A stretch of DNA of 64,000 nucleotides. It comes from Sanchytrium tribonematis. Its lineage: Eukaryota > Sanchytriomycota > Sanchytriomycetes > Sanchytriales > Sanchytriaceae. Positions 10,080-64,000 of the stretch are shown piece after piece. Each line of letters starts with the position of its first letter. Position 1 is the stretch's first letter. The notes under the pieces are model-generated. The model was not told the DNA's origin and did no database searches. It saw only the letters and a program-made list of their open reading frames with translations. A program made the position numbers and the translations under genes. The stretch is from contig JADGIG010000007.1 of the NCBI GenBank assembly GCA_018985235.1, forward strand, positions 1 through 64,000. The letters are read 5' to 3'.

Positions 10080-10885
10080 TCATTGTAAATTTTGCATTTT
10101 TTCAAGGTCTAATTGTAAATCACTTTTTTTCTGCCGCAGCTGTGTTAATAATTGAAAATCCAAACCACGCTCTTTCATTAATTTTGTTTGCCTATTGTTG
10201 ATCGTGACATTTGAAAGTTCATCATATGAAAATTCTCTACGATATAAAGCAAAAAATAAATAGCCAAAGATTGCTGTACCAAAGCCCAGAAAATAAGCTA
10301 TGGGTTCCATAACATCTAAATTAATAAAAATTTACCCCAAGACAAATCCCAAAAAGTCAGCCTTGCCATAACAAAAAATTGCGCGGTCAATCCTATAAGT
10401 CCGGCCCATACGTATCTATTTGCAGATTTACTGGCTTCCTTGATAATCAAGTCATATTTTTGTTCCAATGGGACCAGCTCCTTCTCTACAGCTGCAATTT
10501 GATTAACTATAGGTAAAGTAAGATCATCCATGCTTGGAAGCGTACAAAAAACCATCGAGGGTCCAACCGGAGTAGTTCCATCCGTTTCTTTTCCGATATA
10601 AAAGCCGCCTTCTTTCATACATTCTTTTAAAACAAATTCCAAGGAAGTTAAAGATGAAAGTATAGTCTTTGTATCAGCCAAATAAATTTGAGGTTTGCTA
10701 TTAGAGTCCATGATGCCGTCTAATTTCAATTTTTCAAAAATAGTAAGGATTGGGTACGTCTTTTTAATTGGATACTGGTATGTTTGATTTGCATTCTTAA
10801 AATTGAAAGTAAATATATTGTCGTTCACAGGTTTTAATTCCAAATTTGAAAACTGTCGTCTGGTTACCCTTAAGAATTGATTCAT
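10080..10885 (-). CDS. MCU: Mitochondrial calcium uniporter pore subunit MCU (two exons)
   Basis: Exons are 10885..10336 and 10315..10080, giving 261 residues. The N-terminus MNQFLRVTRRQFSN fits a mitochondrial presequence. The first hydrophobic helix (WAGLIGLTAQFFVMARLTFW) leads into LSWDVMEPIAYFLG, the DIME-type selectivity filter. A second helix (TAIFGYLFFALYRREFSYDEL) and a C-terminal coiled coil follow. Removing the 20-nt intron creates the pore-filter Asp codon (G|AT), so the assignment and the intron support each other. The pore works in the inner mitochondrial membrane with MICU1, encoded at 22953-24027. The protein is shorter than human MCU (351 residues) because its N-domain is small. 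No EMRE was seen here. Confidence 0.93.
10316..10335 (-). other. 20-nt intron in MCU
   Basis: Reads GTAAATTTTTATTAATTTAG on the minus strand. It is phase 1 and splits the Asp codon of the WDVME pore motif. An A lies six bases from the 3' end. Unspliced reading stops at the intron's own TAG. Confidence 0.93.
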
Positions 10886-10918
10886 TTTTAATAATGTTTC
10901 AAAAAATTCAAAATTTAT

Positions 10919-12082
10919 TCAACAATGCATTCCATTTTTCTCGCAAAGCCACGGTGCGATTAATATTGCTGAAAAACCAGCACAAGTGATGCCAAAAGTG
11001 TCAGCTAGTGATACAGCTCCCATTAGAAATTCTTTAACATTTTTAGTTCCAGAACTAGCAGAATTCTGTGAAATATCATCCTCATCAGCCAATACCTCAT
11101 ATTCAAGTACTGGATCAAACTTGAGCAAGCAGGCAAATGCGTTGGCATATGTGGAACCACCCAGGAGACCTTCATATAAAACAAATAGACACACAGGTAT
11201 AAAACCAAAAACTTTGTCTAATGACTGACCAATGAAAAGAAAAACGTTAATAAATTGTAGCCCTGCTAATATAAAAAGATATTTGTGATGTGGAATAGTA
11301 TAAAAAGCTACACTTGATCGGCTTAAGAAGACGCCAACTTGATATAGCATCTGAAAAACAACGTAATAATCACGATTACTTTTAAAAAATGAGTCTTCTG
11401 ATACATCAAAAACAATTGTTGGTAGTATTCCTTGATTTATAACATATTCGGAGTAATAAACTAAAAACAAAGGTAGCATAAAAGGAATCACCGCTTTGGA
11501 AACTATTCTTAATTTATCAGATATTGTCTCCATTTTCATTCCTGTCAGATTTACCGACGAACTTTCGACACTTCCTAAAGATCCTCTTCTTAATCCAAAA
11601 TGGTAAGCGAAGTATAGCAATAATGGAAATGGAGAGATGAGCAACATCGTTTGTGCTTTAGTTAATCTAAAGACCGTAGTTAGTAAAAAATACAAAAAAC
11701 TACCACCAAGTCCCGCCATCCCAGTACCACTAAACCACCCTGTAATGTCCTTTGGAAATTGAGAGCTAAGTGCCAGAAAAGACGCTTCACCAAGTCCTGA
11801 GGAAAAGCTTGCTAAAACAACACCACTCAAACTTGCATCAACATTTGAAAATGTATTGAGCAAAAGAGCTGAAATACTTAAAACAACACATATTCTAAAC
11901 CGCATGTCATAACTCATTTCAATGTAAGGCGATATTGATTTTGAAAATAGTCCCGGTACTATGTCTGCAACTAATACCAGACCTTCTAACCCATGGAATA
12001 TATCTGAGGCAGCACTTAAAAAAATGACGTATATAATATTGTTGATTATCCCACAAATGAAAAACGCTAGAGTGGGCTTCAT
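10919..12082 (-). CDS. BTN1: CLN3/battenin-like lysosomal (vacuolar) membrane protein
   Basis: The 387-residue polytopic protein matches CLN3. Early segments are FFICGIINNIIYVIFLSAASDI and ADIVPGLFSKSISPY. The family signature GLGEASFLALSSQFPK..TGWFSGTGMAGLGGSFLYF follows. Roughly ten to eleven hydrophobic helices are visible. CLN3 family proteins act in vacuole/lysosome pH, basic amino-acid and glycerophosphodiester handling. The ATG at 12082 is preferred because the longer frame starts with GTG. It lies 33 bp upstream of MCU on the same strand. Confidence 0.92.
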   Translation of the reverse strand: MKPTLAFFICGIINNIIYVIFLSAASDIFHGLEGLVLVADIVPGLFSKSISPYIEMSYDMRFRICVVLSISALLLNTFSNVDASLSGVVLASFSSGLGEASFLALSSQFPKDITGWFSGTGMAGLGGSFLYFLLTTVFRLTKAQTMLLISPFPLLLYFAYHFGLRRGSLGSVESSSVNLTGMKMETISDKLRIVSKAVIPFMLPLFLVYYSEYVINQGILPTIVFDVSEDSFFKSNRDYYVVFQMLYQVGVFLSRSSVAFYTIPHHKYLFILAGLQFINVFLFIGQSLDKVFGFIPVCLFVLYEGLLGGSTYANAFACLLKFDPVLEYEVLADEDDISQNSASSGTKNVKEFLMGAVSLADTFGITCAGFSAILIAPWLCEKNGMHC

Positions 12083-12264
12083 TCCAGTCGCTTTGAAACA
12101 AATCACGTTTTTGGAGGGAATCTTTTTTTATACCAATGAGACTATTTTAAATAAATTTTAAGTATCTTAGATTCGAGTTTCCGATAAATTATATAGTCTA
12201 TGACCATTTGGAATTTAAGATTATTATAATAAATGTTTCAGCTAATTCGCTCCAAAGTTTCACA

Positions 12265-12915: not shown

Positions 12916-12963
12916 CTTCTGAAGTAAATGATTTATTTTCTTTTTAATAATCTCCTAATTGCC

Positions 12964-18675: not shown

Positions 18676-18808
18676 TATTGGAATCTATTGATATATGTTT
18701 CAAACACACGTATTTAACTGAGCAACTTTATGGAATCAGTATGCGTGAAATTCTTTTTCATTTGAAAAACAAACAAATAAAATCCCAAAAGGGAAAAATG
18801 GGTCAAAC

Positions 18809-22952: not shown

Positions 22953-24027
22953 TTATTGTTTCAAACATTCAATAAAATTTGAAAAGAATCTAGTAAAGCC
23001 AGTATCTCTATGCTCATTCAAGCCTCGAAATCTGCGTCTCACAAAAGTATTGATGAGAAGCTGGGAGTCGAACCCATCATTTTGAAACACAGAATACAAC
23101 ATTTCGGCCTCTGCATCTACCAATTCCCTATTTGTGGTAACCTGAAATATATGGACCAAATCGGTTTTTGTTATTTTATCAGAATTTTTACTCTACATGA
23201 ATAAAAAATACTTTTGAAAAAAGTTTAATAGCATAATTAAATTCATCAATATTACTTAGTGCTTCATTAAAAGACAAGAACTCGTCTAATTTCATTTTAA
23301 AATTTGATTCAGGTAGTTTCTGAATTCTTTCACCTAACTCAATTTGTTTGGTTGGATGTGCATAATTAGTTATAATGTAAGCAAAATCTTTTAAATTTAT
23401 AGTCCCATTTTTGCTGTACAAGTCAAATTCTATTTTTAGTAAATCTGATTTAATAGATTTAACAAAGTTTTCAAAATCTCTAAATTTAACAACGTCCGTG
23501 TCACCAAAAAGACTCTTTATCACATCAGTTGGATGAACAGCTTGTTTGGATCCAATTCTCTGAGAAAATCCTGCGCTTTGTCTTGAAAATGTCAAAAGCA
23601 TTTCTTGTAATTCTTCGTCATCTACACCACCAGAATTATTTTTGTCAAACAAATTGAACGCACTTTTTAGACTTCTCAGAGGTATTGTCAATAAAGAAAG
23701 GTAGAATACATATTCGTCAAAACTTATCTTTCCATCTTTGTTTAAGTCTGCCAATAAAAGTGAAGAAGTTTTAGGTATATTAATTTTCGTATTTCTTGTT
23801 ACATGATCCTTACTGTTGTATGGAATTAAAGATCTAACAAAGTCTTCCATAGTCATATATTCGTTATTGAGACTGGCAAAATATTGAAATACTTTTAAAG
23901 GATGGCTGTAGGCTCTAACTCTATTTTCGTAATTTCCGAGTATTTGCTCCCGGTATCCATCGCACTGGACGACAAGTCCACCTAAAGCCAATGCTCCAAA
24001 TCCTTTTCGTAAAATTGGTCGAAACAT
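22953..24027 (-). CDS. MICU1: MICU1-like mitochondrial calcium uptake regulator (two exons)
   Basis: Exons are 24027..23212 and 23192..22953, giving 351 residues. A short basic/hydrophobic N-terminus (MFRPILRKGFGALALGGLVV) fits mitochondrial import. MICU1 hallmarks follow: ENRVRAYSHPLKVFQYFASL, YMTMEDFVRSLIPYN and PLRSLKSAFNLFDKNNSG. EF-hand loops are DLNKDGKISFDE and DKNNSGGVDDEE. After splicing, FSKSKNSDKITKTDLVHIFQVTTNRELVDAEAE matches the MICU1 C-lobe. The last EF-loop (QNDGFDSQLL) looks degenerate. The MICU1-type ending RGLNEHRDTGFTRFFSNFIECL is present. It gates MCU (encoded at 10080-10885) from the intermembrane space. Confidence 0.92.
23193..23211 (-). other. 19-nt intron in MICU1
   Basis: Reads GTATTTTTTATTCATGTAG, phase 0, with A six bases from the 3' end. 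Splicing joins ..KLFSK to SKNSDKITK.. and restores the MICU1 C-terminal lobe. Confidence 0.92.
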
Positions 24028-24197: not shown

Positions 24198-27159
24198 ATG
24201 TCTTTTCAACTCAGAGCTCTCACGCGAAAGCAACTGATTCAAGAAAAAAGAAGATGGAAAACAAGTTTATGTTGCGTTGGTTTATGTCCGTTTTTGATGG
24301 TTTTGATCGCAGGTGGAGTAGGTATATTTCTCCAACAATTACTGGCCAGCCAATTGAAATACCAGGAAACCTTGGTATGCTCAAATAGCAATGCTACTGA
24401 TTCCAATGGCTTGTATACCCAGGCTGGTGTGACTTTGGATAAATCAAAAGTTTATGGTGCTACGATCGATGTAATTGCTACAAATTATTACACTGCCCCA
24501 TTTAAATTTTCAAAGAATGGTCCACCAACTGGTGGATCCCAAAGTAGCTGTGTTCGATGGCATACCCAAAATACGCCAGATCAATTCCCTTACAGTAGAC
24601 AAACCAATCAAAGTACATGGTTGGCTGGTGGTGATACATTATTTATACCCGCACCAGCTGGCGGGTGGCTTAATGTTCAGAAATTCGCAAACCAAACCTA
24701 TGCTTTTAAATTGACGCAGTTGCAAACCTATCCTTGGTGGATTGTATCAGGTGATGATCAAGCAAAACTTGGATCAAGAGGTAGCCGACAATATTCGTTT
24801 ACAAATGTATCCGACTTTACAGCAACCAATCCACCTAGTAGAAATGATGCTTCTGGCATTTTTAAAACTATGGGTGAACAGGTTTACATTAATGTTGATA
24901 CGACGAATAAAACCAATCCATTTAGTTATTATGGTGTACCGTTTGCCAAGACAAGCAGTGGAAGTGTTAGCGAGGTAGATGATGCTTTTCAGGCTATCAT
25001 AGCTGATGTACTGGATAAGATCTCCAGAGTTGTAGACAAACCTGACAGTCCAACTTTCCAATCTGATCGATCAATTGCAGACAGAATTAAAATTCAAACA
25101 TCCGCCAACAAGATCGTTCAATCATTACCATGGGGAACTATGATTGTTAATTCTTTTATTCCGAATTCGGTTGTGGATATGGTGCTTCAAGTGGGACATG
25201 ATACGCGAATTGACCAAGCTGCACAGTATACCTCATTAGGACTTCGAAGATTTATGAGTTGGGCTTATGTTGCTCAAGGTGCATTGAAACAAATCGACAA
25301 TTCAGCAGATTTGAATCACGGAATTAGAAACTTTCCGCAATTGGTTAACAACAAAATTGATTTCAATTTTGATTCCTTTTTAGCGGATATCCTATTTCCT
25401 TTTGCTCTTTCCTTTTTGTTCCCTATTTTTGTAGTTACTCTCGTTCGTGAGAAAGAGGACCGTATTGCAATTATGATGAAAATGAATGGGTTAAAGACAA
25501 GCACGTATTATTTCACTCATGCCATCACTTTCTTCATTTTGCATGTTTTGGCATGCGTCGTCTTCACGGTGACTGGTATTGCATTTCGACTAAAGTTTTT
25601 TGTTAATACTGACCCTGGTGTTTATATCTTGTTGTTCTTATTTTGGGGTCTCGTTCAAATTGCAATGGCATTTTTCTTTGCAACAATTTTCGATAAAAGT
25701 CGTCTAAGTCTGATTGTTTCTTTCTTCACCGTGTTGGTTAATATTATTATTAGCTTGGCTTTGGATAGATTGCAAGTCAACGGATACAATACGTTCTTTT
25801 TTATATGGCCACCATTTGCATTTTATAGAGCACTATCGTTGATAAATGCTGGGAGCTACGATTCAGATCTCACTCCTTATACGCTTGCTAATGCAAATCC
25901 CCCTGACAATGTTGGGCTGGCCTTGATTGCATTGAGCTTAGAAACCATTGCTTATATATTTATGGCTTATTATGCAAGTCAAGTTCTCCCATCAGAATTT
26001 GGAACTCAGAAACCTTGGTATTTTCCTTTCGAGTATCTGAAAAATAAAATGAAGAAGAATTCAACCACGGAGGAGGGTACATATACTGCGATAGAAATTG
26101 ATGATAAGGAGTTAACCCAAGAAGACAATGACGTCAAAAATGAAAGAGCGAGAATTGATAAGGGTGAATATGATCCTGAATGTCCACTAATCGTCAAACA
26201 TATGAGAAAGGTTTATCCGAATGGAAAGCTTGCTGTGCGCGATGTCACTTTCGCTGTTGAAAAGAACAGCATTATGGGATTACTTGGGCCAAATGGTGCA
26301 GGAAAAAGTACTTTAATAAGCATTTTAACTGGACTTTATCCACCCAGTCATGGTCAAGCCAAATTAGGCGGCTTTGACATTCACACAGAACAAGACAAGG
26401 TCTTTCAAGTTACTGGTATTTGCCCACAACATGATATATTGTGGCCTGATCTTACGGTGGAAGAACATCTTTACTTTTATGCTAGATTAAAGGGAGTTCC
26501 ACCAGCTAAGGAAAAGGAAGCTGTTACGACTGCTATTGAAAGTGTGAAACTAGCAGCTTTTACCAAAAGACAAAGTGGTGGACTTAGTGGTGGCGAAAAG
26601 CGTAGGTTGAGTATCGCCATTAGTCTGATTGGAGACCCTAGAATTATATTTCTAGATGAGCCAACAACTGGTATATAATTTTTACTTAGGACTGGATCCA
26701 GAAGTTAGAAGAATTATTTGGGATATCATTAGTAAAGCAAGACACGGTAGAACTGTCATTTTAACAACTCACAGTATGGAAGAAGCGGAAAGTCTTTGTC
26801 AAAGAATTGGGATCATGGCAAATGGTAGTATGAGATGTATTGGTGCTCAAGCCAGATTAAAGCAGCAATATGGTAGTGGGTTCCGTATTACATTCAGTAT
26901 GAAAGCGGAGCACCATACTGAAGCTACTGAATTTGTCAAGTCGCTTTTAAAAGAAACGGGATTTCAAATTTTAGATGATTTTGACACATTATGCAATTAC
27001 GAGTTTCCATATTCTCCCGGGATTGTTAGTCATCTTTTTGAGAAAATGGGTGATTCCAAAGAGCATTTCATAGTGGATTGGGGAATTAGTCAAACCAGTC
27101 TTGAGGATGTCTTTCTTCGAATCGTAAAAGAAAGCGACGCAGCAGCTTATGCAGATTAA
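24198..27159 (+). CDS. ABCA-type half-size ABC transporter (two exons)
   Basis: Exons are 24198..26670 and 26690..27159, giving 980 residues. One transmembrane helix near the N-terminus (about 25-50) is followed by a large extracytosolic loop with several N-x-S/T sites. Six helices follow at about 395-600, with the ABCA signature VREKEDRIAIMMKMNGL. The single nucleotide-binding domain has Walker A GPNGAGKST (about 697), the LSGGEKRRLS signature, and Walker B IIFLDEPTTG. After splicing comes GLDPEVRRIIW (D-loop) and the LTTHSMEEAE switch His. The layout is like half-size ABCA proteins of protists and plants. It probably dimerises to move lipids; the substrate is unknown. Confidence 0.9.
26671..26689 (+). 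other. 19-nt intron in the ABCA transporter
   Basis: Reads GTATATAATTTTTACTTAG, phase 1, placed inside the Gly codon between Walker B and the D-loop (DEPTTG|LDPE). It has A six bases from the 3' end. Confidence 0.95.
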
Positions 27160-28649: not shown

Positions 28650-28935
<286 letters not shown>

Positions 28936-29687: not shown

Positions 29688-31011
29688 ATGGCAAATCAAA
29701 CTTATAAAGTCAAAGATATTAACCAATGGGAATATGGTCGAAAAGAAATCGAAATCGCAGAAAACGAAATGCCTGGTTTAATGGCAATCCGAAATAAGTA
29801 TGCTAAAGAACAACCTCTGAAAGGAGCAAGAATTGCGGGATGTCTTCATATGACCATCCAAACAGCAGTCTTAATTGAAACTTTAGTTGCCCTGGGTGCT
29901 GAGGTCACTTGGTCCTCATGTAACATTTACTCCACGCAAGACCATGCTGCTGCTGCAATCGCTAAGACAGGAGTACCAGTTTTTGCTTGGAAAGGTGAAA
30001 CCGATGAAGAGTACTTGTGGTGTATTGAACAATCTTTGCTTTCATTTAAGGATGGTAAGCCTCTCAATATGATCTTGGATGATGGTGGGGATTTGACCCA
30101 ATTGGTTCACGACAAATATCCTCAATTAATGAAGGACGTTAAAGGTGTATCTGAAGAAACCACAACTGGTGTACACAACTTGTACAAGATGTTTAAAAAG
30201 GGTCAATTAAGATGTCCTGCTATAAATGTTAATGACTCTGTCACAAAAAGCAAATTTGACAATCTTTATGGCTGTCGTGAGTCTTTGATTGATGGGATCA
30301 AAAGAGCCACTGATGTCATGATTGCTGGTAAAACAGCCGTTGTTGCTGGATATGGTGATGTTGGAAAAGGATGCGCAATGGCCTTGAGAGGTATGGGTGC
30401 TAGAGTTCTTATTACTGAAATCGATCCGATTAATGCATTGCAAGCAGCTATGGAAGGATATAAGATCATGACTATGGAGGAAGCTGTTAAAGAAGCTCAA
30501 ATTGTTGTAACAACTACTGTATCTATTAATAATTTAGGGGTGTAGAGATATTGTCACTGCTAAGCACTTTGAAGCTTTGCAAGACGACTCAATTGTCTGC
30601 AACATTGGGCATTTTGATATTGAAATCGATGTCGCATGGTTGAAAAAGAATGCTAAATCAGTTTCTAATATTAAACCGCAAGTTGATCGATACACTCTAG
30701 CCAACGGAAAGAGAATCATTTTACTTGCTGACGGAAGACTTGTTAATCTCGGATGTGCCACTGGACATCCATCTTTTGTCATGTCAAATTCATTTTGCAA
30801 TCAAGTTCTTGCTCAAATTGCATTATGGAAAGCGCAACCTGGAGATTATGCTATTGGAGTGCATGTCTTACCAAAACATTTGGATGAAGAGGTTGCTAGA
30901 TTGCATTTGGAGAAATTGGGAATGAAATTGACAAAATTGTCTGATGTACAAGCTGAATACTTGGGAATCCCTCAAGAAGGCCCTTACAAGCCAGATCACT
31001 ATAGATATTAG
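29688..31011 (+). CDS. SAH1: S-adenosylhomocysteine hydrolase (two exons)
   Basis: Exons are 29688..30518 and 30538..31011, giving 434 residues. The enzyme splits S-adenosylhomocysteine into adenosine and homocysteine and keeps methylation running. Conserved blocks are [52 protein letters not shown] and DDGGDLT. Then come [13 protein letters not shown], the NAD-binding [10 protein letters not shown] (about 221), NIGHFD, and the terminal KPDHYRY. The spliced VTTTGCRDIV is the expected sequence. The start is the ATG at 29688 ([10 protein letters not shown]); the longer frame upstream has no family match. The enzyme is a cytosolic homotetramer. Confidence 0.97.
30519..30537 (+). other. 19-nt intron in the SAHH gene
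   Basis: Reads GTATCTATTAATAATTTAG, phase 0, between the third Thr and the Gly of VTTTGCRD. It has A six bases from the 3' end. Confidence 0.95.
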
Positions 31012-31045: not shown

Positions 31046-31757
31046 TCAAAAGAGCCAACTACCAATGAGAAAACTCATTACCATTAGTACTAAGACCATA
31101 GACATAGGTATACCTTTTTGCTCAACTTGTTTGTATACTTTGGGTGATTTAGGGGACGAAGCTGAAGATTTGGCGAGTTGTGCCTTATAATCTTCAATTT
31201 TTAATTGCAACTCTAAAACTATATAAATGATGACTACCTTCATCTTCTGACCTTTCTGTTTTGCTAGTAGTATTAGTATTCCTTTGAGTTGCTATGTTAT
31301 TTTGGGACAGAGCGGTTGTGACTGCAGCGTCTTTACTTGGAACCATATTGGATTTTGGAATTGTCAAAGCTGGAGAAGTTGTCGGATTGATAGTTTTTGG
31401 CTGTAAAGTGTTACTTGCAGAATCGGGAGATGGCTCTGACTTTTCAATATCTAGAAATTTAACTCTTAATTTATGCTCGTGTGAGGTTCCATCATCCCAT
31501 AATTTGGACCTTGTAGACATTATTAAAAATTTATCTTTATGGCTAGATGGTGGGTGATAGTCTATGGAAATCTCAATGTTAGATTTGGGAGGTATTTCGC
31601 CGCTTGCAGGCTTGACTGTGTATGTTTTTGGAGCAGTGGTGCGTACTTTAAAATGAACAATAGAATCATGTGGATTCTCCAAATTCAAACTAGAGGTTGA
31701 CTCGATGGTGGAATTTCTAAACTCTATATAATGATCCGGTGAAATTGTGAGTGACAT
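31046..31757 (-). CDS. VAP/Scs2-like ER membrane contact protein (two exons)
   Basis: Exons are 31757..31238 and 31218..31046, giving 230 residues. An MSP domain (about 1-115) shows YIEFRNSTIESTSSLNLENP, VHFKVRTTAPKTYTVKPASG and DKFLIMSTRSK. A Ser/Thr/Pro-rich linker follows. After splicing comes a short coiled coil (SEDEVLELQLKIEDYKAQL) and a C-terminal anchor helix (MSMVLVLMVMSFLIGSWLF). This is the tail-anchored VAP layout. VAPs bind FFAT motifs at ER contacts. The start at 31757 is the first ATG; the longer frame begins with GTG. Confidence 0.93.
31219..31237 (-). other. 19-nt intron in the VAP gene
   Basis: Reads GTAGTCATCATTTATATAG, phase 1, with A six bases from the 3' end. It joins the linker to the coiled coil and membrane anchor. 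Confidence 0.9.
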
Positions 31758-31802: not shown

Positions 31803-32604
31803 TTAATTTTTCCGCTTCTTTTTGATAATACCCATTTCTAGTTGCAACTCGTATTCATCTTCCTTCTTTCCTATCCTTGAACTAAATTAAAAGAAATTAC
31901 CTTCTGGCTTCCTCCCGCTTAATATCTTCTGCTGTGGCCTCCATATCGTCTAAATCATCATCAGAAAAATAGCTGTAGTTTCTCTTACGCCCATATAAAC
32001 CCTGAACTATATCAGTTATGCTTTCTTCATTGTTTGGGGAAGGTGACATATCAGTATCATTGTGATTTTCATGCTGTTTTTTCGACGAGGTATCTTTATA
32101 AATTTGAGTCTTCGTTGGTCTGTCTTTAAAAGCGTAATCAACTTGAGGAGGAATCCTTTTTTCGATGTCCCTATTAGGATTCACTTTTTGCTCTATTTTT
32201 TTCTTGTTCAAAATGGTCTTTTCTTTTAGTATTTCATCATAATGGTCATCCTCGTCTGGTATTGACTGCAAAATTTCTTTGGGCTTGGGTGGAGGGAGGT
32301 ATTCCCCTTTTTCCAATTTCCGCTCTAATTCTTTCTTGTCAACAATATGAAAAGACTCAATCGGCTGACTTAGATTTGAGTTTCCTTTAAGCGCCTCCAT
32401 TAGCTGCTTATCTGTCTCGCTCAATGTAGGTGGTTTAGCTCTTCGAATTTTCGGTTTATTACTTAATTCACCTTTTTCCTTTCTTGGTGGTATATTTACT
32501 GATTTCTTCTTTTGGGGCTGTTGGATCGGCACTTTTTCCTGCTTAATATTTGAAAAGAGTCCATTCATTCTATTCTTGAAGTTTTTCAGTTGATTTGAAG
32601 ACAT
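31803..32604 (-). CDS. SPT2: SPT2-like chromatin protein (two exons)
   Basis: Exons are 32604..31901 and 31881..31803, giving 260 residues. Most of the protein is disordered and Lys/Glu/Pro-rich. The recognisable part is the C-terminal SPT2 histone-binding region: SDDDLDDMEATAEDIKREEARSSRIGKKEDEYE, continuing to a basic end (KKKRKN). SPT2 binds H3-H4 and recycles histones during transcription. The intron lies within the conserved C-terminal block and removing it extends the match by 25 residues. The middle GLYGRKR segment is also typical. Confidence 0.87.
31882..31900 (-). other. 19-nt intron in SPT2
   Basis: Reads GTAATTTCTTTTAATTTAG, phase 2, with A six bases from the 3' end. Splicing gives EEARSSRIGKKEDEYE. 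Confidence 0.9.
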
Positions 32605-38494: not shown

Positions 38495-39116
38495 ATGGAC
38501 GACGAATTTGTGGATATAGTTGGCGACACGGATGAAGAAATCATAGATGTAGTAACAATAGACAAAAATCCACCAGACGCTATCCGACCATTAATAAAAT
38601 TCCAGGGATTTACCTGTAAAATTTGTGAGAAGGTCATGAGAGACAAAGCAGGATTAACGAGGTATTTTATTTTTACTCAGACATATGAAAAATCTTCATA
38701 CTAAAAAAGTACCATGCTTTTTTTGTAAAAAAGAATTAAAAACTTTTGGACGATCCGATAGTTTAAGAAGCCATTTGATGACTTGTCAGAGTTTCGTAAA
38801 AATAGTACGACACTACTATGGGGGTGATATTTCAAAGGAAGATTTTAAAACAATAACCTGGAGGTATAGCCTTGAATCTGGAAAGAAAAACCGGTTGCCA
38901 CGGAATTTTGATGAAAGCGATTTACAACAAGTTTGCCAAATTGAATGTGTTTATGATGCTCCCGTCACTGACGTAGAATTATTTCAATTAAACAACCTTG
39001 TCAATCAATATAAATTAACCAAATCTCAATCTAACAATTTTAATCCAAATATACAAAATACTTTATGTGATAACCAAAAATCTACATACTTGAGCATTGA
39101 AAAATCAAATGATTAA
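38495..39116 (+). CDS. Zinc-finger protein, paralogue of the 18232 gene (two exons)
   Basis: Exons are 38495..38661 and 38681..39116, giving 200 residues. An acidic start (MDDEFVDIVGDTDEEIIDV) precedes a C2H2 finger that only appears after splicing: CKICEKVMRDKAGLTRHMKNLH. A second Cys-rich unit follows (CFFCKKELKTFGRSDSLRSHLMTC). The pair FGRxDxLRxHLMxC and its spacing match the gene at 18232. The remaining 110 residues are Asn/Gln-rich and unstructured. The role is probably in DNA binding; I do not recognise the family. Its intron lies early in the CDS (28%), unlike all the others. Confidence 0.78.
38662..38680 (+). other. 19-nt intron in the zinc-finger gene
   Basis: Reads GTATTTTATTTTTACTCAG, phase 2, with A six bases from the 3' end. 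Removing it completes the His ligands of the first finger (LTRHMKNLH). Confidence 0.9.
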
Positions 39117-43911: not shown

Positions 43912-45403
43912 TCACCGCAAACTGTTTGGTGACATTCTTGCCACGAGAACCCCGATTTGCTCACAAGCAACTCTAGACTTAAGCCACTCATGACTAATTA
44001 ATTCTCCAGAAGACCATCTACAATTAACATCCACTTCTAGACAGCAAGCTAAAAATTCTTTTGTTAGAACCCCAGTGAGATTCGATTTTTTTAATCGAGG
44101 TGTCCCATTTGTTACAATTAGATAGAGTGCTTTTAATGGTTCTTCTGACAAATAAGGTGGCTCTCCTTCTAGCATCTCTATAAGCATGATACCAAGCGAC
44201 CAACAATCAACTTTAAACCCATAATTTTTCTGTTTGATAACCTCGGGAGCCATCCAATATGGAGTTCCTACCATTGTGGCTCTCCTGTCTTGCCGATTGA
44301 CGCGAGCACAAAAGCCAAAGTCCGCTAAATAAAATTAAAATACTTAATTTGATATGCCCAGTTTTGTCCAGCAGAATATTGTCACTTTTTATGTCTCTAT
44401 GTATCACTTCTTTAGAATGCAAAAAAGATATACCCTGCAATGTTTCGTATATAATACATGCCATTTCGTTTTCCTTAAAAGAGGTTTTAATGTTCTTTGT
44501 GTGGTAATCAATTAAATTAGTTAAAGAGCAATTCATGTACTCCATGACGACGTATAAATCGCCTTTCAAATAATGAGAATCTACAAATTCGACTAAGTTC
44601 GGGTGACGAAAGGTTTTTATAATATTCAGCTCGTTAATGATAAGCTCCTTTCTGGGCTGATTCTTTAAATGTATTCTTTTGATGGCCATATAAATTGAAT
44701 TTGCGCGATTTGAATATTTTGCAAGATAAACACTACCACTTGCCCCTTGGCCAAGCTTCTTAATTAAAGTATAGCATTTGTGAGGGTCTGTCGGATTACA
44801 AAGTGGAACAAGTTGATCGACCATTTCTTCAAAAGTCATTTTTCTACGTTTCTTCGGCAAGTCGGGTTTGATATTTTCCTTAAGGTCGGGTTTTTGTGGA
44901 CGATCTTTTTTCAAAATTTTATAGTCATTGTCTTTAGTAGATGTATAAAATTCAAGAACATTAAGTACATTTTCAGGATCTTTCTCAACATCGGCTTTGT
45001 TGATTTTAGAACCCTTTAACAATTGATGCCAATGTGCCGGCAAACCGGTGAATTCACCTTTTTCATGATTATATCCAACATGGCATAGATGTTTGAATTG
45101 ACTAGGTTTTGAAATCTCGCTTTTACAATCCATAATACGGAAAACATCATCATCCTCTTCAAAAATTAGGGAAATTTTTTTCTCGCCTCCTTTTTCTCTA
45201 TAATGTACCGATACATCGAGCTGGTCGGTTCTTTCCACCCGCTCTATGTCTTCAAAAAAAATTAAATAATTAGGATGGTCAACACAGTCACGTCTTTTAT
45301 GAATAGTAAGAGAATCGTGTTTGAGAAGCACAAATCTTTTTTGAGCCAACCCTAGAATGCCAGATTTAACAGCGCATGATATGCTTTTATTTTCAGCTAA
45401 CAT
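43912..45403 (-). CDS. CLA4: p21-activated kinase, Cla4-like with PH, CRIB and kinase domains (two exons)
   Basis: Exons are 45403..44344 and 44324..43912, giving 490 residues. A small PH domain occupies about 9-95. The CRIB motif [20 protein letters not shown] comes next (about 97). The kinase domain (about 208-480) has [12 protein letters not shown], the catalytic Lys in [23 protein letters not shown], and [10 protein letters not shown]. The PH-CRIB-kinase order defines fungal Cla4-type PAKs, which bind Cdc42/Rac-GTP and act in polarity and cytokinesis. The start ATG at 45403 begins just before the PH domain. It is a likely effector of the intact RAC1 at 54221-54818. Confidence 0.95.
44325..44343 (-). 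other. 19-nt intron in the PAK gene
   Basis: Reads GTATTTTAATTTTATTTAG, phase 1, splitting the Thr codon before the DFG motif (KLT|DFGFCAR). It has A six bases from the 3' end. Confidence 0.96.
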
Positions 45404-46430: not shown

Positions 46431-47547
46431 ATGCCAAGTGAGATAAAGTCTGTCTTGATTACGGGAGGAACTGGCTTTGTAGGCCGACACTTAGTAGATT
46501 ATCTATTAGACTCAGGAATTACTGATATCAAAGTAGTTGACAAGTCATTACCTTCATTGTCTTGGCTAAATGAAAAACACAAATCTGCCTTGGGCAAAGT
46601 GCAGTTCGTTCAAGCAAATTTATGTTTAGACAGCGGCGTAGCAAAAGTTTTTGATAAAAGTTACGATTTGGTTGTAAACTTAGCCTCGGAAACTAAATAT
46701 GGCCAATCAGAAGAAATTTATAAAGAAAAAGTCCTTGATGTGGCTCTGAGAATAGCTAATGCAGCCGTCGGAAAGACGAAGGTATTTGTAGAGCTTTCTA
46801 CCGGACAGGTTTATGACCCAAAAGACAAGCCGGTAAAGGAAAGTGGAAAAACTAAACCTTGGACAAAATTAGCAGAGTACAAATTACAAACCGAACAAGA
46901 GCTCTCCAAATTAGACTTAAATTTAGTGATTTTAAGACCAGCCATTATCTATGGTGTTGCTGATATTTATGGAATTACTCCCAGACTCATTATTGGTAAA
47001 GTCTATCAGCACATCAAGGAAACTATGGAATTGTTATGGACTGGTGATTTGGCAATCAACACGGTTCATGTTACTGATGTTGTCCGTGCTATTTTGTTCA
47101 CAGCCAGATACCACATGCAGAAATTAGCAAAGGGAGAAATTTACAATTTAGCAGACAAAAGTAATTCTACGCAAGAAACTATTAATGCTCTATTGCAAAA
47201 TATTTTCGGTATTAAAACTTCGTTTGTTGGATCTGTTGCTTCTCAGTTCGCTAAATTGAATTTGACTACTGTTGTTCAAGATGTGAACGAAAAACACATG
47301 GCACCATGGAGTGAATTGTTGAAGAAGGAAGATTTAAACAGTTTTTAATTTTCATTTAGGTCATCTGACTCCATATTTGGATAAGGAGCTGCTTTATAAC
47401 CACAGTTTATCTATTGACGGGTCAAAAATTGAAGACTTGAAATTGGATGGGGAATCATTTAAACTTAAGCATCCAAACATCAATGAGGCGTTACTTAAAG
47501 AAGTTGTGGATGACTTTAAACAATGCAAATTATGGCCAAGTGCTTAG
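46431..47547 (+). CDS. Extended SDR (NAD-dependent epimerase/dehydratase-like), two exons
   Basis: Exons are 46431..47340 and 47360..47547, giving 365 residues. The Rossmann motif TGGTGFVGRHL lies near residue 11. NLASETKYG and LSTGQVYDP follow; a Tyr and Lys of an atypical catalytic site may lie in LAEYKLQTE. LRPAIIYGV then resembles the 3-beta-HSD/epimerase family. After splicing the C-terminus continues DLNSHLTPYLDKELLYNHSLSIDG. Substrate and pathway cannot be told from sequence. Related fungal proteins are annotated simply as NAD-dependent epimerases. It converges on TOM22 with 12 bp between stops. Confidence 0.8.
47341..47359 (+). other. 19-nt intron in the SDR gene
   Basis: Reads GTTTTTAATTTTCATTTAG, phase 1. 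It is the only supported intron starting GTT rather than GTA. It has A six bases from the 3' end. Confidence 0.82.
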
Positions 47548-48904: not shown

Positions 48905-49844
48905 ATGGCAACTTCGCAAACAATCGAAGTAATTGAAGTCGCATTTTCCGGAGGCCAAGGCAGAGATGGAGTCGAGTTTGGACCAGAGACACTTATTAAT
49001 CATGGTTTGTTAAATCAACTAAAAGGTCTTGGTTACAACGTTCAACACAATAAGTCTTTTAAAAATATTCCTAAACCCGAAAACGATCCAATTGTTGCTG
49101 GCTGTAAAAATTCAAAGTATGTATCCGCTGCAAACAAGAGTCTTTTCTCTGCTGTTAAACAAGCTTGTGAAGTTCATAAAACTACACTTGTAATCGGCGG
49201 AGACCATTCACTTGCTATAGGCTCAATTGCAGGCTCCGCAGCAGTTTATCCTGATATCTGTGTTATTTGGGTTGATGCACATGCTGATATTAATACTCCA
49301 GATACCAGTGGTAGTGGGAATCTACATGGGTGTCCATTGTCCTTCTTATTAAAGCTGCCATCTACGGAAAAAGTACCAGAATTGAGTTGGGTCCCAAAAT
49401 GTTTATCTCCAGACCGACTGGTGTATATTGGACTCAGAGATGTAGATGAAGGCGAAAGAAAAATTTTAAAAGAGCACAAAATCAAGGCTTTTAGCATGCA
49501 TGATGTTGACAAATATGGCATAGGAAGAGTTGTTGAAATGGCATTGGACCACGTCAATCCGAAAAGGGATCTTCCTATTCATATGTCGTATGATGTGGAT
49601 GCTTTAGACCCTACAGTAGCGCCAGCAACTGGTATATCTAATTTATTTAGGAACACCTGTAAGAGGTGGTTTGACTTTCCGCGAGGGTCACTATATAGCA
49701 GAGGCTATAGCAGAAACCGGGAAATTAGTTGTAATGGACATCATGGAAGTCAATCCAATTTTGGCAATTCAAAAAACCGACGAACCTACCGCGACTGTAG
49801 CTTGTTCTTTAATTCGAGCGGCATTTGGTGAAACGTTGCTTTGA
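48905..49844 (+). CDS. CAR1: Arginase (two exons)
   Basis: Exons are 48905..49631 and 49651..49844, giving 306 residues. The binuclear manganese site is complete: IGGDHSLAIG, WVDAHADINTPDTSGSGNLHG, and SYDVDALDPTVAPATG. After splicing TPVRGGLTFREGHYIAEAIAETGKLVVMDIMEVNP follows, as in ureohydrolases. The enzyme makes ornithine and urea from arginine. Without the intron the frame ends in unrelated sequence, so the splice is secure. The length matches family members (about 300-330). The gene ends 9 bp before the stop of the next, convergent gene. Confidence 0.97.
49632..49650 (+). other. 19-nt intron in the arginase gene
   Basis: Reads GTATATCTAATTTATTTAG, phase 1, within the Gly codon of PATG|TPVRGG. 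It has A six bases from the 3' end. Confidence 0.96.
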
Positions 49845-54220: not shown

Positions 54221-54818
54221 TTACAAAATAATGCATTTTTTCTGGGCCTTCGCTTTTTGTGGAGGAGCAAGAACAGCACGGATAGCTAAATTAATAACAA
54301 GTACCTTCATCAAAGACGTTTTTTAATCCTTTTTGGGTAAGAGCAGAGCACTCCAAATATTTAACACTTCCTATTTCTTTTGCCATTTGAAGCCCTTGTG
54401 GGTATGTAATTGGAGACATTCTTTTCTCTCTCAACTTTTCAATTGTCTCTCTATCTTCTCTCAAATCCAGCTTAGTTCCTACTAGAATAATAGGGACTCC
54501 AGGTGCATGATGAGATATTTCAGGATACCATTTGGTTCGAACATTTTCAAATGATGGGGGACTGACCAGTGAAAAACATATCAAAAACACATCTGTTTGA
54601 GGATAAGACAATGGCCGTAGACGATCATAATCTTCCTGACCAGCAGTATCCCATAATCCCAAATTAATCGGTTTTCCGTCAACCATCACATTAGCTGAGT
54701 AGTTATCAAAAACCGTAGGAATATACTCTCCTGGAAACGCATTTGTAGTATATGAAATTAATAAGCAGGTCTTTCCAACAGCTCCATCTCCAACAACAAC
54801 ACATTTTATAGCTTGCAT
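54221..54818 (-). CDS. RAC1: RAC1-type Rho GTPase (two exons)
   Basis: Exons are 54818..54305 and 54285..54221, giving 192 residues, exactly the size of animal Rac1. All G motifs are present: [10 protein letters not shown], switch [30 protein letters not shown], and GTKLDLRED. The Rho insert [19 protein letters not shown] and [11 protein letters not shown] also match. The spliced tail [21 protein letters not shown] ends in CAAX box CIIL (geranylgeranyl type). It is a membrane-bound switch for actin and PAK. The truncated copy at 28656 shares this coding sequence. Confidence 0.98.
54286..54304 (-). other. 19-nt intron in RAC1
   Basis: Reads GTACTTGTTATTAATTTAG, phase 1, with A six bases from the 3' end. 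Identical to the intron of the truncated Rac copy. Confidence 0.96.
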
Positions 54819-54960
54819 TTTATGAAGACTGGTGTTTCAGATTATTTTGGAGAAATTTTCTACTCTCTATATGATAAAAAATGTTCTCTTTTTGGCTGAT
54901 TAATAAGAATTTGAATTATTTAAATTCGATCATAATCTTTTTTTTGAAATTCTTTTGTCC

Positions 54961-55972
54961 ATGTTTCGCCCTGATGAGATTCTTAATCAATTTTTATCCA
55001 ATACAGGTCAGATAACTAGCGACTGGGTCCTTCCAAGCTTTGGAGCTATTCCTAAAAAGACTCTACATACTCCTGATGATATAAATAAATGGAGCAAGAG
55101 TAAAGGCCTTGGCTTATTATTGACAACCTTATTACAATTTACTGATTCTGTTGAAGGTGTGACTGAAATACCTGCTAAATTATCGGAAGAAACTAAAATT
55201 ATTCTTGACTTCTTCCACAAGATTAATTTGATGACTTTAAAATTGGGAAATCAAGTAGAATCAAGCGACGACATCAGATTTGGGAATCCAAAGGTGATGG
55301 ATCTTTACAAATGGATTTATGACAACACTCCGGTACATTTAAACAGTTTATCTACTGTTAAAACAGCATTAAAAGAGGAACTATTTTATTATTTCAATAA
55401 TTCATTTGGTTCATCTCGATTAGACTTTGGAAGTGGTCATGAACTTTCTTTTTTGGCATTTATGACTATTATTTATAAATCAAACGAAAACGCAGACTTT
55501 TCACGCGAGCTTGTTCTTGTGATTTACTCGCAATACATCACTCTGATCCGCGGCATCATTAAAATATTTCATTTAGAGCCTGCAGGTACTACTATCTTAA
55601 TTAGGGAGTCATGGAGTGTGGGGAGTTGATGATTATTACTTATTACCATACTTATTAGGTGCCTCACAATTATGCAACTCAAGGCTAAAGCCATCGGATA
55701 TCCACAATCCCGAAATTTTATCACATTTTCAAACTAAAGATACAAAATTATATTTATATTTCGATGCTATAAGATATATAAAGAGTAACAAAACTGGACC
55801 ATTTTTCGAGCATTCGCCCATGCTCAATGATATTTCAAATTCAAAAAATTGGGTCAAGGTAAGACAGGGAATGTTGCGCTGGTATATCATGGAATGCTGC
55901 ACTAAATTTGTAGTTGTACAACACTTCTTCATGGGTCAAATTTTTACTCTCGAAGAATATGTGCGAAAGTAA
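54961..55972 (+). CDS. PTPA: PTPA/Rrd, PP2A phosphatase activator (two exons)
   Basis: Exons are 54961..55585 and 55605..55972, giving 330 residues. PTPA motifs include [66 protein letters not shown] (joined by splicing), and GPFFEHSPMLNDIS. The protein is a peptidyl-prolyl isomerase-like chaperone that activates protein phosphatase 2A and loads its metals. The longer frame starts at a TTG two codons upstream; the ATG at 54961 (MFRPDEIL) is used. Confidence 0.95.
55586..55604 (+). other. 19-nt intron in PTPA
   Basis: Reads GTACTACTATCTTAATTAG, phase 1, within the Gly codon of [10 protein letters not shown]. It has A six bases from the 3' end. Confidence 0.95.
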
Positions 55973-56591: not shown

Positions 56592-56631
56592 TAGTATTTA
56601 TAGACACTCAATAATAAATTCAGTGCAATTG

Positions 56632-57360: not shown

Positions 57361-57398
57361 CAAATTTAATATATAGCAGTAATTTCAAGGAGTTGCAA

Positions 57399-59313
57399 AT
57401 GTTAAATTATTTGTCTGCGGCTTTTAACGCATTTGGTATAGGCAATTTTAAAAGCCAAGTAGTTGGCACTCTCTATGAAAAAATCAACAAGCTATCTGTA
57501 AAATTCAAAGATTGCGAGTTAGAAGTTCAACAGCATTCAAATAATCTTTATCAGTTGGTTATCAGCAAAATTTATGATCAAGATGAAGAGTTTTCAGATT
57601 TTGATGAGTATGTTATCCTTCTTCGCTCTGAAATAGAATTAAAAGAGACTTCGGGAGGCTTCACTTGGATTGATGATGGGATTGAAATGGTTTTTATGAC
57701 AAAAGACTCCAGTATCCTTCAAAAGCTTCAAAATCACATAAATATTTATGAGGATGATAAAATGAAAAGCAAGTCAATTTATATTGAAAGTGCTCAAAAT
57801 ACGGCTCCTTTAAATATATCTGGAGACGTCATGCTCTCTTGCGGTATTAATTTATTTACCTTTAACGTGAAAGATTCACTATTTGAGCCAATATCAGAAA
57901 AAGAATTCAAATTAGAAGTCGTAAAAAGTCAAACAGGATCTTTTATGAAAATCAGTGGCGAACATGACATCTGCACCAAAATTGAACATTCTATGAATCC
58001 CTACTTCAGTCAAGAAAAGTGGTGCTTTTTGTGGAACCATTTTGATAAAGTCTTGGTGAGTATGGCGGCTGTCTTCTCACCTAAGGATTACTCAACGTTT
58101 AGATCCATACTACAGAGAGTCTTAATTGAACAACAAAATCTGTTAATCACTCCAGATGAGATCCAGTACGCTCAGTCTGCTCTAATTGCTGAAGATATGG
58201 CATATGAAGAAGGAGTTACTGCAGATGATAGCTCTAGCTCTGAGACTGAGTCCGAGCCTGATTTGATCGGAGAGGCCAATGTTGCAAAAGATAGAAATAA
58301 CAAGCTTACAACTTCTCTCAGAAATTATAAAGCATTTGTTAGCAGGGGTGATAAAATTGACTCGTACGACACAAATTCTAAAGTTCAGAAATTAAGGACA
58401 AATTCTTCCAATTTTACTCCTGACAACATACATCTGCATGAAAATGAACGGAAGCTTCTAATGTTTGACAAAAATCGCGTCTCTTCTATGGATTTGGAGA
58501 CCGGAAAAGTGGTTGAGGAATGGGATGCTCCTAAAAATTTGAGAGGAATTAGTTCTTTGACCAAATCGTCTCAATTAACCAATGAACAACAATTTTATGG
58601 AATAACCAATAATGATGTGTTACTAATGGACCCTCGATCAAGAAATTTGGCTTCACAGACCACATCTTACAAGTCAAACCCAAATTTCACTGCAATTAAG
58701 ACAGGCGGCAAGGATGATCAGATTGCAGTGGCAAATGAGCAAGGAGAACTCAAATTATACAACAAGTTAGGAATTCGTGCTAAGACAAATCTAAAGCTAG
58801 CTGGAGGTATTTATTTTTAATGAAGAACCAATATTAAGTTTAGATATATCAGAGAATGGGGCTTGGATAGTAGCGACTTGCAAGACTTTTCTAATGTTGA
58901 TAGAGGCTGATCACGAATCCACAAGTGGTTTTTCAAAATCAATTCCAGTTAAACACAGGAAACCACCTATTAGACTTACCATTCGACCTGATCATGCAAT
59001 GCAGCTAGGCCTTCAGAAAGTCAATTTTACTCCGGCCAGATTTGATACAATTAATGGCAAGGAAGAGAAATACATCGTAAGTAGCACAGGAAATTATCTT
59101 ATAGCATGGTCGCTAAAGAAAGCGAAGTTAGGTAGGAATGATTATCAAATCAAAAAATATTCAGAAACAATAGTCGGAGAACAATTTCACAAACCAGGAC
59201 AAGTTGTCGTGGCCTTATCGAATCAATTGGTACTAGCCAACAAACGAAATTTTATGACCCCAAAAAAGATTTTTGCGGATCGTGACAGCGTCACTAAATC
59301 TTATAATAAATAA
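57399..59313 (+). CDS. VID27: VID27-family protein (two exons)
   Basis: Exons are 57399..58806 and 58826..59313, giving 631 residues. The N-terminal half has a PH-like region. An acidic segment (SSSSETESEPD) follows, then the VID27 C-terminal beta-propeller. It contains MDLETGKVVEEWDAP, NDVLLMDPRSR, and GRELKLYN-like GELKLYNKLG. After splicing PILSLDISENGAWIVATCKTFLMLIEA follows. Yeast Vid27 was named from vacuolar import and degradation of fructose-1,6-bisphosphatase. The start ATG is at 57399; the longer frame begins with a TTG. Confidence 0.9.
58807..58825 (+). other. 19-nt intron in VID27
   Basis: Reads GTATTTATTTTTAATGAAG, phase 1, with A six bases from the 3' end. It is the only one ending GAAG rather than N-TAG or TCAG. 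Confidence 0.9.
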
Positions 59314-59316
59314 TTA

Positions 59317-60003: not shown

Positions 60004-60018
60004 GGAGGTTTTCAAAAT

Positions 60019-61881: not shown

Positions 61882-61925
61882 AAATTTAAAGGTCACGTCG
61901 CTAAAAAGTTACAGTTTATTTTGAT

Positions 61926-64000
61926 TCAATTGGCCGACCCTGGAGTTCTAAGCTCTATCACACAGTCATCGGATATAGTTTCAGGAAGTAAAGGAATATC
62001 TTTAGACTCAAAAATTTTGTCAAAATTTTCAATCAAGAATGTCACAAAGTCATTTGGCTGATTGTCGAAAAAATTGTTAGGATCGTCCTTGAGCTTTATA
62101 AGTGTTGGCCCAAAAACAATGCCGATATTCCTAGGATTCATTTTATTATATTCTTCAAAAGAAGCTACCCTAAATTAGATCAATTTACCTTTGCAGATGT
62201 TGAATAAGGTAGTATAATGTATAGTAATGAGATGGTAGTAATTTTTTAATGGAATTTTTAAAAAAGATTAACGAATCATCGGAAGGTTTAGGTTCCTTGA
62301 GAATATATACTGTTGTTTCATATATGTCTGTAGAAATAAGTGGGATTTTCAAATCTCGGAAATAAGCTTTTAAAAGAGACGATACTGAAAGAACGTCGAT
62401 GAGATCATGCGCCATGTCAATGGTGTTACCTTGTTCCCACTCATCTTGCATATTCTTCATTTCCTTCATCGCACCAGCCCTTCGATAAATTCCCTCAGTT
62501 TTTAAACCTTTTTCATCAACAACTCTCAAACAAGCAGTTACAATATTAGGAATTGGTTTGCCCTCGAAGTCCGCTCTTTCTTGCAAAAATCCACCGAAGA
62601 GGACAACTTTTTGTTTCTTTAACTTAGCAATAGCCAAGCCTTTCAATTGTTTTGCACGCAAAGATCCCTCCATGAGTCTTAAAGTTTTAGCTCTGTTAAT
62701 ATCTTGTGGTTGATCGTCTTCATCTTGTTTTTGCTTTTTGATAAGATTATTTGCTTTGTCTCTCCAAAACTCTTTCTTGCCTTTATCTTCAGCTAAATTA
62801 CTGTTTGAAACATTCTCGAGACTTTCCCTAGAGCCTTTGGCGTCTATATCATGTTCTCTTGGTGATTCAGGACTTGTTGGTTGCTGAAATTTTTCAGATT
62901 TTTTAGCTGTACTTACTACTTCATTTTGTCTGAACTTACAGACTTCGTATTCCTTTACTTTTTCACGAATTTCTGTCAGAATTGTGGCTTTGTCGGCAAT
63001 CAAGGATTTAATTTCGCTAGTTAAAGTATTTTTTTGCTCTTCCAATGGTGCCAGTAACGATAACAATTTCGCTATTTCGGAGTCGGATGCGATAACTCCA
63101 TTTTCAGCTCTCTTTCTCAACATTTCTTGTAAGACTTTACACTGCTTCTCAGACTGATTTCTCAAATTTTCCTCATATTTAGAGTCAGATTTTTGTTTTT
63201 CAAGTTCTGAAAGCTTGACATGCAATTCACCAATGAGTAGCTCATATTTGAGCTTCAAATTATTGTAATCGGAGGACTTGTCTTCTTTTTCTTTAGCTAT
63301 AATTTCATGTTGTTTTTTTATTCCACTGATATTTATTTCCAACGACCTTAATTTCTCCAAGTCAAACCTATGCTCTTCTCTTTCTTTATCCAAATCTTTT
63401 ACTACTTTAATAAATTCGTTGTCCAAAGTTGATAATTGCATTTGAAGCCTAGAGACTTTTTCTAATTGGATTTGTAAGGATATTTCTAAATCTTTCTTTG
63501 ATTGAGTTAATTGCTTGAGTTCTTTGCCAATTTCTGAATTAAAAGAACTCAGTTGCTGTTTCGTTTTGGTTTCTGACTCGGCAGTGTTTTTAAATCCCGA
63601 TAATTGTAGTTCATAAGAATGAATTATTTGTCTTGATTCATCAAGTTGTTTTTCAACTTGAATTTTAGACTGTCTTACCAACATTAATTCATCTTTTAGC
63701 TCTTGCAACTGGTCTTCCAAGTAGGATTTAGTTTGCTGAAGTTCTGAAAATTCCTCAATTGTGCAAGAATTTTTTTTCAATTCATCAAGATGATACAATG
63801 CTTCTCTGTATCGAACTTTCTCTAATTCCATGCTATGTTTATAATGATCGAAATCCTCTAAAGCCTTACGACTCAAGTCTTTCAATTTTTTCAGCTGTTC
63901 TTGGAGCTCTATATTCAAGGCTTGTGATTTTTGAAGTTCTTTTTTAGCATGTTCGTGCTCCTCATTGCGAGATTGCTTCGGAACCTCTGTTGTTTTAAGA
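61926..64000 (-). CDS. Coiled-coil RhoGAP, cut by the right edge (two exons)
   Basis: Exon 1 runs from beyond 64000 to 62189 and exon 2 from 62169 to 61926. About 450 residues of heptad-rich coiled coil come first. A linker with SPESPREHD follows, then a RhoGAP domain with VLFGGFLQE, the arginine-finger GIYRRAGAMKEM, SLLKAYFRDLKIPLI, and [40 protein letters not shown] (across the splice). RhoGAPs stimulate GTP hydrolysis by Rho, Rac or Cdc42. The 5' end is not in the window; the frame stays open to 64000. It is a plausible negative regulator of RAC1 in the same window. Confidence 0.9.
62170..62188 (-). other. 19-nt intron in the RhoGAP gene
   Basis: Reads GTAAATTGATCTAATTTAG, phase 2, inside the Arg codon of [15 protein letters not shown]. 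It has A six bases from the 3' end. Confidence 0.95.

Follow-up and report, generated by a model that had tools for sequence, protein, structure and literature searches.

A uniform class of 19–20-nt segments in Sanchytrium tribonematis genes, very probably spliceosomal introns

The first 64,000 nucleotides (nt) of contig JADGIG010000007.1 from Sanchytrium tribonematis (NCBI assembly GCA_018985235.1) carry genes for, among others, a mitochondrial calcium uniporter (MCU), S-adenosylhomocysteine hydrolase (SAHH), a PAK kinase, arginase, PTPA and two copies of Rac, and the reading frames of these and further genes are interrupted by segments of 19 or 20 nt. This stretch, hereafter the window, belongs to a 66,115-base contig (C299 in our numbering); the assembly that we analysed comprises 6.34 Mb in 311 contigs. 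Combining a consensus-plus-frame scan with an unbiased scan, we recovered 17 introns between positions 10316 and 62188, 15 of them 19 nt and two 20 nt long (Table 1), and all 17 begin with GT and end with AG. An earlier note on the window had reported the same 17 introns, and its tally, first start and last end were reproduced by the two scans. We consider it very probable that the major (U2-type) spliceosome removes these segments as normal GU-AG introns, which have shrunk to a single size.

Table 1. Introns of the window. Positions are those of the window; a slash marks the splice junction in the restored protein.
Gene	Intron position	Strand	Length (nt)	Observation
MCU	10316..10335	-	20	..LSW/DVMEP..; Pfam MCU 51.4 bits in exon-1 frame, 128.8 spliced
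EF-hand protein	23193..23211	-	19	frame restored; EF-hand domains off the junction; "MICU1" is the earlier note's name
ABCA-type transporter	26671..26689	+	19	DEPTT/GLDPE; exon 1 holds ABC_tran and ABC2_membrane_3
Rac, internally deleted copy	28849..28867	+	19	NVFDE/AIRAVL; intron identical to that of the full-length copy at 54286
SAHH	30519..30537	+	19	VVTTT/GCRDI; NAD-binding domain 157 bits in exon-1 frame, 285 spliced; match crosses junction
MSP-domain protein	31219..31237	-	19	frame restored; Motile_Sperm domain within exon 1; "VAP" is the earlier note's name
SPT2 chromatin protein	31882..31900	-	19	SPT2 domain match crosses junction
YKT6-like SNARE	35490..35508	-	19	Longin and synaptobrevin domains; synaptobrevin crosses junction
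C2H2 zinc-finger protein	38662..38680	+	19	zf-C2H2 match crosses junction
MIOS	39252..39271	-	20	frame restored into Cys/His-rich C-terminus; exon-1 MIOS_WD40 match barely above cut-off
PAK kinase	44325..44343	-	19	GHIKL/TDFGF; Pkinase 118 bits in exon-1 frame, 230 spliced, crosses junction; PBD domain present
SDR/epimerase protein	47341..47359	+	19	frame restored; Epimerase domain within exon 1
Arginase	49632..49650	+	19	VAPAT/GTPVRGG; Pfam 189 bits in exon-1 frame, 254 spliced; gapless against PDB 5ynl at junction
Rac, full length	54286..54304	-	19	NVFDE/AIRAVL; Ras domain match crosses junction
PTPA	55586..55604	+	19	LEPA/GSHGVWG; Pfam 109 bits in exon-1 frame, 271 spliced; gapless against PDB 2ixn at junction
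VID27	58807..58825	+	19	frame restored; exon 1, scanned by itself, covers positions 2-184 of the 356 in the VID27 profile
RhoGAP protein	62170..62188	-	19	frame restored; exon 1, scanned by itself, covers positions 1-120 of the 148 in the RhoGAP profile

Removal of the segment restores the reading frame at all 17 sites. MICU1 and VAP are names from the earlier note; the Pfam domains go no further than an EF-hand protein and an MSP-domain protein. Pfam scans covered the spliced products of 12 of the 17 genes and, for ABCA, MIOS, VID27 and RhoGAP, exon 1 alone. In nine of the 12 spliced proteins (MCU, SPT2, the YKT6-like SNARE, the zinc-finger protein, arginase, PTPA, Rac, PAK and SAHH) a domain match runs through the junction; in the other three (the EF-hand, MSP-domain and SDR proteins) no domain does, and the restored frame is the support. 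The Pfam score rose upon splicing in all five genes scanned both ways, namely MCU, PTPA, arginase, PAK and SAHH, and the two proteins of the 17 that were aligned to PDB entries, arginase and PTPA, run through their junctions without a gap.

The internally deleted Rac copy (28650-28935) is near-identical at the DNA level to full-length Rac (54224-54836), with 100% identity over 98 nt and 98.7% over 157 nt, and lacks about 320 nt of the middle. It is a recent duplicate, a pseudogene or an amplification chimera.

The length of these segments can be compared with all others in an unbiased scan. The scanned set comprises 288,258 bases: the window together with one 10-kb stretch from each of 20 contigs and seven short loci (locus L004, which overlaps the window, was left out). 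Using a codon score derived from 152 long open frames, we collected all dinucleotide pairs lying 10-200 nt apart for which excision links two well-supported frames. At 19 nt, GT..AG pairs were observed 52 times against 12.9 expected (z 10.9), and no GT..AG excess was seen at any other length between 10 and 200 nt; the second-ranked of the 191 lengths, 151 nt, gave 46 against 31.9 (z 2.5), and at 20 nt there were 11 pairs against about 8 expected. Compared with every other dinucleotide pair at 19 nt, GT..AG shows the largest excess (ratio 5.4); the next named, GG..TA (3.1), and TA..GG (2.7) represent the identical removals shifted by one base. The high scores of other dinucleotide pairs above 70 nt we reject as an artefact, since counts grow with length; the effect is gone for GT..AG when it is set against the pooled pairs of each length.

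Adding the intron consensus to the frame requirement sharpens the picture. In the same 288 kb, consensus-plus-frame matches number 40 at 19 nt, six at 20 nt and none at 18 or 21 nt, and the remaining 184 lengths from 15 to 200 nt together yield 59, or 0.32 per length. At 19 and 20 nt, 62 of the 75 consensus matches are frame-consistent, to be compared with 4/11, 5/10, 4/10, 5/11, 6/29 and 6/14 at six control length pairs; going by these controls, chance may account for about five of the 62. Of the 13 that fail, three have a long downstream and a short upstream frame, three the opposite, and the rest look like chance. The excess of about 57 consensus matches per 288 kb extrapolates to roughly 1,250 introns in the 6.34-Mb assembly.

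Genome-wide, the pattern GTAN{6,14}TTAATTTAG has 136 matches, of which 100 were listed: 81 of these measure 19 nt and eight measure 20 nt. The wider pattern GTAN{6,36}TTTATTTAG has 207 matches; the 100 listed include 58 of 19 nt, eight of 20 nt, two of 18 nt and 32 scattered over 23-48 nt. With the patterns reversed the totals are 95 and 248, respectively, so the totals prove nothing by themselves, and the evidence lies in the length peak. The earlier note had predicted a genome-wide length histogram peaking at 19 and had needed no longer intron; the pattern matches do peak there, and the 288-kb frame scan has no second peak between 10 and 200 nt. A histogram built on the textbook 5'-site motif GTAAGT has no 19-nt peak in the window. 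It initially seemed to be counter-evidence, and was set aside because these introns almost never have G at position +5.

The internal anatomy of the segments was read from two sets: 52 unpruned 19-nt candidates, and a consensus set of 42 from which the ten off-consensus candidates had been left out, and which is thus biased toward the consensus. The introns read GTA..YTNAY..AG, with YTNAY as a weak branch motif. In the consensus set GTA opens 40 of 42 introns, Y11 is present in 40, T12 and A14 are present in all, and AG closes them; in the unpruned set GTA is found in 42 of 52, T12 in 45 and A14 in 48. The branch-like A at position 14 lies 13 nt past the opening G, with the closing G 5 nt further on. 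Of the 11 unpruned 20-nt candidates nine have A15, and so the extra base sits upstream of the branch point, on the side of the 5' splice site, with the spacing from branch to 3' end constant across both lengths. The final exon base is G in 26 of the 42 consensus introns. G at +5 is the usual partner of U1 and U6; here it is found in none of the 42 consensus introns, three of the 52 unpruned candidates and three of the 81 listed genome-wide 19-nt pattern matches, a depletion with p 1.7e-4 relative to 17.5% G (the last set, whose pattern fixes only GTA and the 3' end). Intron phases are even (13, 15 and 14 in the consensus set), and between the splice signals the sequences vary from intron to intron.

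Core parts of the machinery expected for such introns are encoded. One U2 (115.9 bits), one U6 (61.8 bits) and one U1 (43.7 bits) were found in the genome, with canonical pairing boxes: GUAGUA in U2, ACAGAGA in U6 and ACUUACCU in U1, where the alignment has the box AUACUUACCU intact. PRP8, U1-70K and the branchpoint-binding protein (BBP/SF1, recognized via its KH domain) are encoded as well. The BBP gene carries a 19-nt intron of its own, removal of which gives ..DADLDQ/HVTIMASSWDKIKKA.., and so does the eIF2-gamma gene, where removal gives LMATM/LNGAAVMD; both junctions were read by eye.

Among the alternatives, the one that survives best is that the introns are real and mostly 19-20 nt long while a substantial longer class has been overlooked. 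The frame scan ends at 200 nt and needs good coding on both sides, which lets very long introns and tiny exons escape, and it took in 288 kb of the 6.34 Mb. We also scanned 20 further frames of the window, some of them same-strand neighbours that abut or overlap one another. A Pfam match was obtained for twelve (among them ribosomal L5, ATG9 over the whole profile, MBOAT, CAP-Gly and AAA) and none for the other eight, which leaves the alternative some room; no domain split between neighbouring frames was seen among the 12 that match. Against a longer class stand the GT..AG excess confined to 19 nt, the fact that all 17 window introns are 19 or 20 nt long, and several long genes without interruption: PRP8 and CLN3 are intronless in this genome, PRP8 being one open frame of 2,239 codons (a 2,224-residue record), and a TAF2/bromodomain frame of 1,760 codons is unbroken. 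On balance we regard an overlooked longer class as improbable.

Far less room is left for the idea that frameshifts from single-cell amplification or assembly errors, or pseudogenes, were misread as introns through convenient GT..AG pairs. The genome probably comes from amplified sporangia, judging by the organism, and one Rac copy does look internally deleted; however, errors would not pile up at 19 nt with a single consensus, GT..AG tops all dinucleotide-pair controls at that length while lengths up to 200 nt serve as further controls, and conserved proteins are complete after splicing, which makes this account very unlikely. Removal of the segments from DNA, in the manner of ciliate internal eliminated sequences, or their being mobile mini-insertions, would suit their shortness and uniformity, and the evidence for splicing is at the sequence level, but we find it scarcely credible given the GT..AG ends, a branch-like YTNAY at constant distance from AG, a genome encoding U1, U2, U6, PRP8 and BBP, inner sequences that vary too much for copies of one element, and the fact that we know of no fungus with internal DNA removal of this kind.

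Several points nevertheless weigh against reading the segments as normal U2-type introns of a fungus. Excision from RNA is deduced from genomic DNA. The U1 score of 43.7 bits is below the Rfam gathering score of 69.5, and the SF1-HH helix was not found in a search made without a positive control, though the KH part of BBP was. The 59 consensus-plus-frame matches at other lengths look like background but may include single longer introns. The gene for an HBS1-like elongation factor (L038, about 490-508; G000:C164:36089-36107) needs, as read by eye, the removal of a 19-nt segment that runs from GT to AT, GTAATCTATTCTAATTTAT; either a non-AG 3' splice site or a sequencing error is possible there. 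As to placement, the PRP8 tree (47 of the 120 rows listed) puts the organism on the fungal side, beside a chytrid among others, and not adjoining Blastocladiomycota, and the SAHH tree (the query and 33 of the 120 rows listed) does not resolve it within fungi.

The fungal-side gene content claimed in the earlier note agrees with that PRP8 placement, and can be narrowed to a very probable place among the true fungi, in Sanchytriomycota. A second PRP8 record in EukProt, 68% identical, would be that of the sister sanchytrid. Setting aside two relatives and a 674-residue pseudoscorpion record, the best listed SAHH match is from Sorochytrium, which we take to be a blastocladiomycete.

If the segments are spliced as ordinary introns, each would be released as a lariat whose ring measures about 14 nt and whose tail measures 5 nt. 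U1 and U6 would touch little beyond GUA, U2 and BBP would touch YTNAY, and the 13-nt spacing between them would itself be part of recognition. A fixed length would serve as part of intron recognition because the 5' splice site holds little information at +4 to +6. At fixed length the consensus holds 15.6 bits, compared with about 12.3 bits needed for 1,250 sites in 6.34 Mb on one strand. At the right length there are 69 consensus matches against a background of about 12; were any length from 15 to 80 nt accepted, the background would be about 65 times larger, and the intron signal would drown. Since 19 is 3n+1, every retained intron would shift the reading frame. The class itself may have arisen as a compact parasite genome, under a bias toward deletion, shrank its introns to the limit of splicing, and would have done so independently of the other known ultrashort-intron lineages; shrinkage of this kind is the explanation given for mikrocytids (PMC10245619).

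Introns are also unevenly placed within genes. Intron-poor genomes in general have their introns biased to the 5' end. Here, across the window and the other loci that make up the 288-kb set, 42 of 54 introns lie past the middle of the gene (p 5e-5; median relative position 0.75), with medians of 240 codons before the intron and 88 after it (Wilcoxon p 4e-6). Eight of the 62 frame-consistent matches are cut by a locus edge and were left out, and introns after very short first exons may escape this analysis; the 3' lean persists when three dropped matches with long downstream frames are counted as 5' introns (42 of 57, p 5e-4). Taking recognition and position together we propose, tentatively and leaning slightly toward doubt, that the sanchytrid lineage splices by a molecular ruler. 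Normal small nuclear RNAs (snRNAs) would work at spacings of 13 and 5 nt, length would replace most of the 5'-site sequence, only segments of 19-20 nt would be removable, and the introns that remain would mostly be those in the 3' parts of genes, contrary to the norm for intron-poor genomes.

Uniform ultrashort introns are already known from nucleomorphs, heterotrich ciliates and mikrocytids, and so the size as such is not unprecedented. In the mikrocytids Mikrocytos mackini and Paramikrocytos canceri (Rhizaria), 217 of 224 introns are 16 nt and seven are 17 nt long, with highly conserved sequence, and the machinery identified consists of only U2, U4, U6 and 17-19 spliceosomal proteins, with no U1 (PMC10245619). 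Like Sanchytrium, mikrocytids are parasites with a uniform ultrashort class of nuclear introns. They differ in belonging to another supergroup, in intron length (16-17 as against 19-20 nt) and in intron number (224 as against an estimated 1,250), and U1, which is identified in Sanchytrium, is not among the components reported for them.

The closest resemblance in anatomy is to the heterotrich Stentor coeruleus, the introns of which are 15-16 nt long and AU-rich, with a stringent GUA start and a branch A at position 10 of 15 (PMC9505925). Both organisms combine a fixed length, AU-richness and a stringent GUA start with a branch A at the same distance of five nt from the intron end (A10 of 15 and A14 of 19), and both have the canonical U1 ACUUACCU and U2 GUAGUA. 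The logic of the length rule also fits Stentor, because the branch A is likewise five nt from the end and the GUA start is stringent there. Unlike Sanchytrium, Stentor is a giant free-living cell; its introns are biased to the 5' rather than the 3' end of the gene, and its last exon base is usually not G (PMC9505925), whereas it is G in 26 of 42 cases here.

Chlorarachniophyte nucleomorph introns measure 18-21 nt (PMC10245619), and those of 18-20 nt are removed efficiently while those of 21-27 nt are removed much less so (PMC5014332). This is a narrow range at the same size as in Sanchytrium, but in the relic endosymbiont nucleus of an alga and not in a free-standing fungal nucleus. The earlier note had likened the size to that of these nucleomorphs and put it slightly above that of Stentor, which is what the published ranges give.

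Among relatives on the fungal side, microsporidia are parasites, too, and have few and relatively short introns (PMC10245619); no uniform 19-nt class was seen for them (microsporidian lengths were not checked). In Cryptococcus neoformans many introns are shorter than 60 nt, which is what "ultra-short" means there, and a 20-40-nt bin is reported (PMC11913375). Its introns are spread over a wide range with an average of 56 nt, and no uniform 19-nt class was seen there, unlike in Sanchytrium.

What is new here is the fungal lineage, the 19-nt length class and the apparently normal U1, U2 and U6. In the open-licence literature searched we found no report of sanchytrid spliceosomal introns or of a 19-nt class in any fungus. 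The sanchytrid genome paper contains a single word that begins with "intron", and this stands in the title of a reference; the string "splic" is absent, and proteins were predicted there as open frames from contigs with TransDecoder (PMC8371127). The sanchytrid TPPP paper likewise has such a word once, in a reference (PMC10459994). Prediction from open frames is likely to have left intron-bearing genes split or truncated in the published sanchytrid protein set, and such fragments may explain part of the large fraction of unannotated, sanchytrid-specific proteins reported there (PMC8371127).

The class would represent a further origin, apparently an independent one, of ultrashort introns locked to one length, and it falls in a kingdom for which we found no earlier report. 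It would also supply a fungal case for the question of the minimum spliceosome substrate: the 19-nt introns of an alga-infecting fungus offer a natural way to ask how short an RNA segment a normal spliceosome can remove. With U1, U2 and U6 kept and bearing textbook boxes, intron shrinkage appears separable from loss of the U1 small nuclear ribonucleoprotein (snRNP). The earlier note had expected a spliceosome acting on 19-nt introns to be structurally unusual; a uniform class of tiny spliceosomal introns is supported, but its size has precedent and the three snRNAs look normal.

Some further observations concern other genes. In the window, the 1,760-codon unbroken frame (12928-18210) joins TAF2-like domains to bromodomains, and a second unbroken frame, of 1,370 codons (18749-22861), combines an S1 domain with HAT/Suf repeats and is RRP5-like, a label of our own reading. 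An MMR_HSR1 GTPase frame (47908-48822) matches only profile positions 2-58 of 113, and is either divergent or broken by something unrecognised. The GC content of the genome is 34.6-35.0%, compared with published values of 34.64% for S. tribonematis and 36.27% for Amoeboradix gromovi; their mitochondrial genomes are given as 24,749 and 27,055 bp, respectively (PMC8371127). Lastly, a 24,986-bp contig, 237 bp longer than the published S. tribonematis mitochondrial genome and with no exact terminal overlap found to account for the difference, carries COX1 (L040, G000:C311:14333-19348), matched in four separate pieces and with an in-frame TGA; the pieces and the TGA are consistent with organellar introns and with TGA being read as an amino acid.

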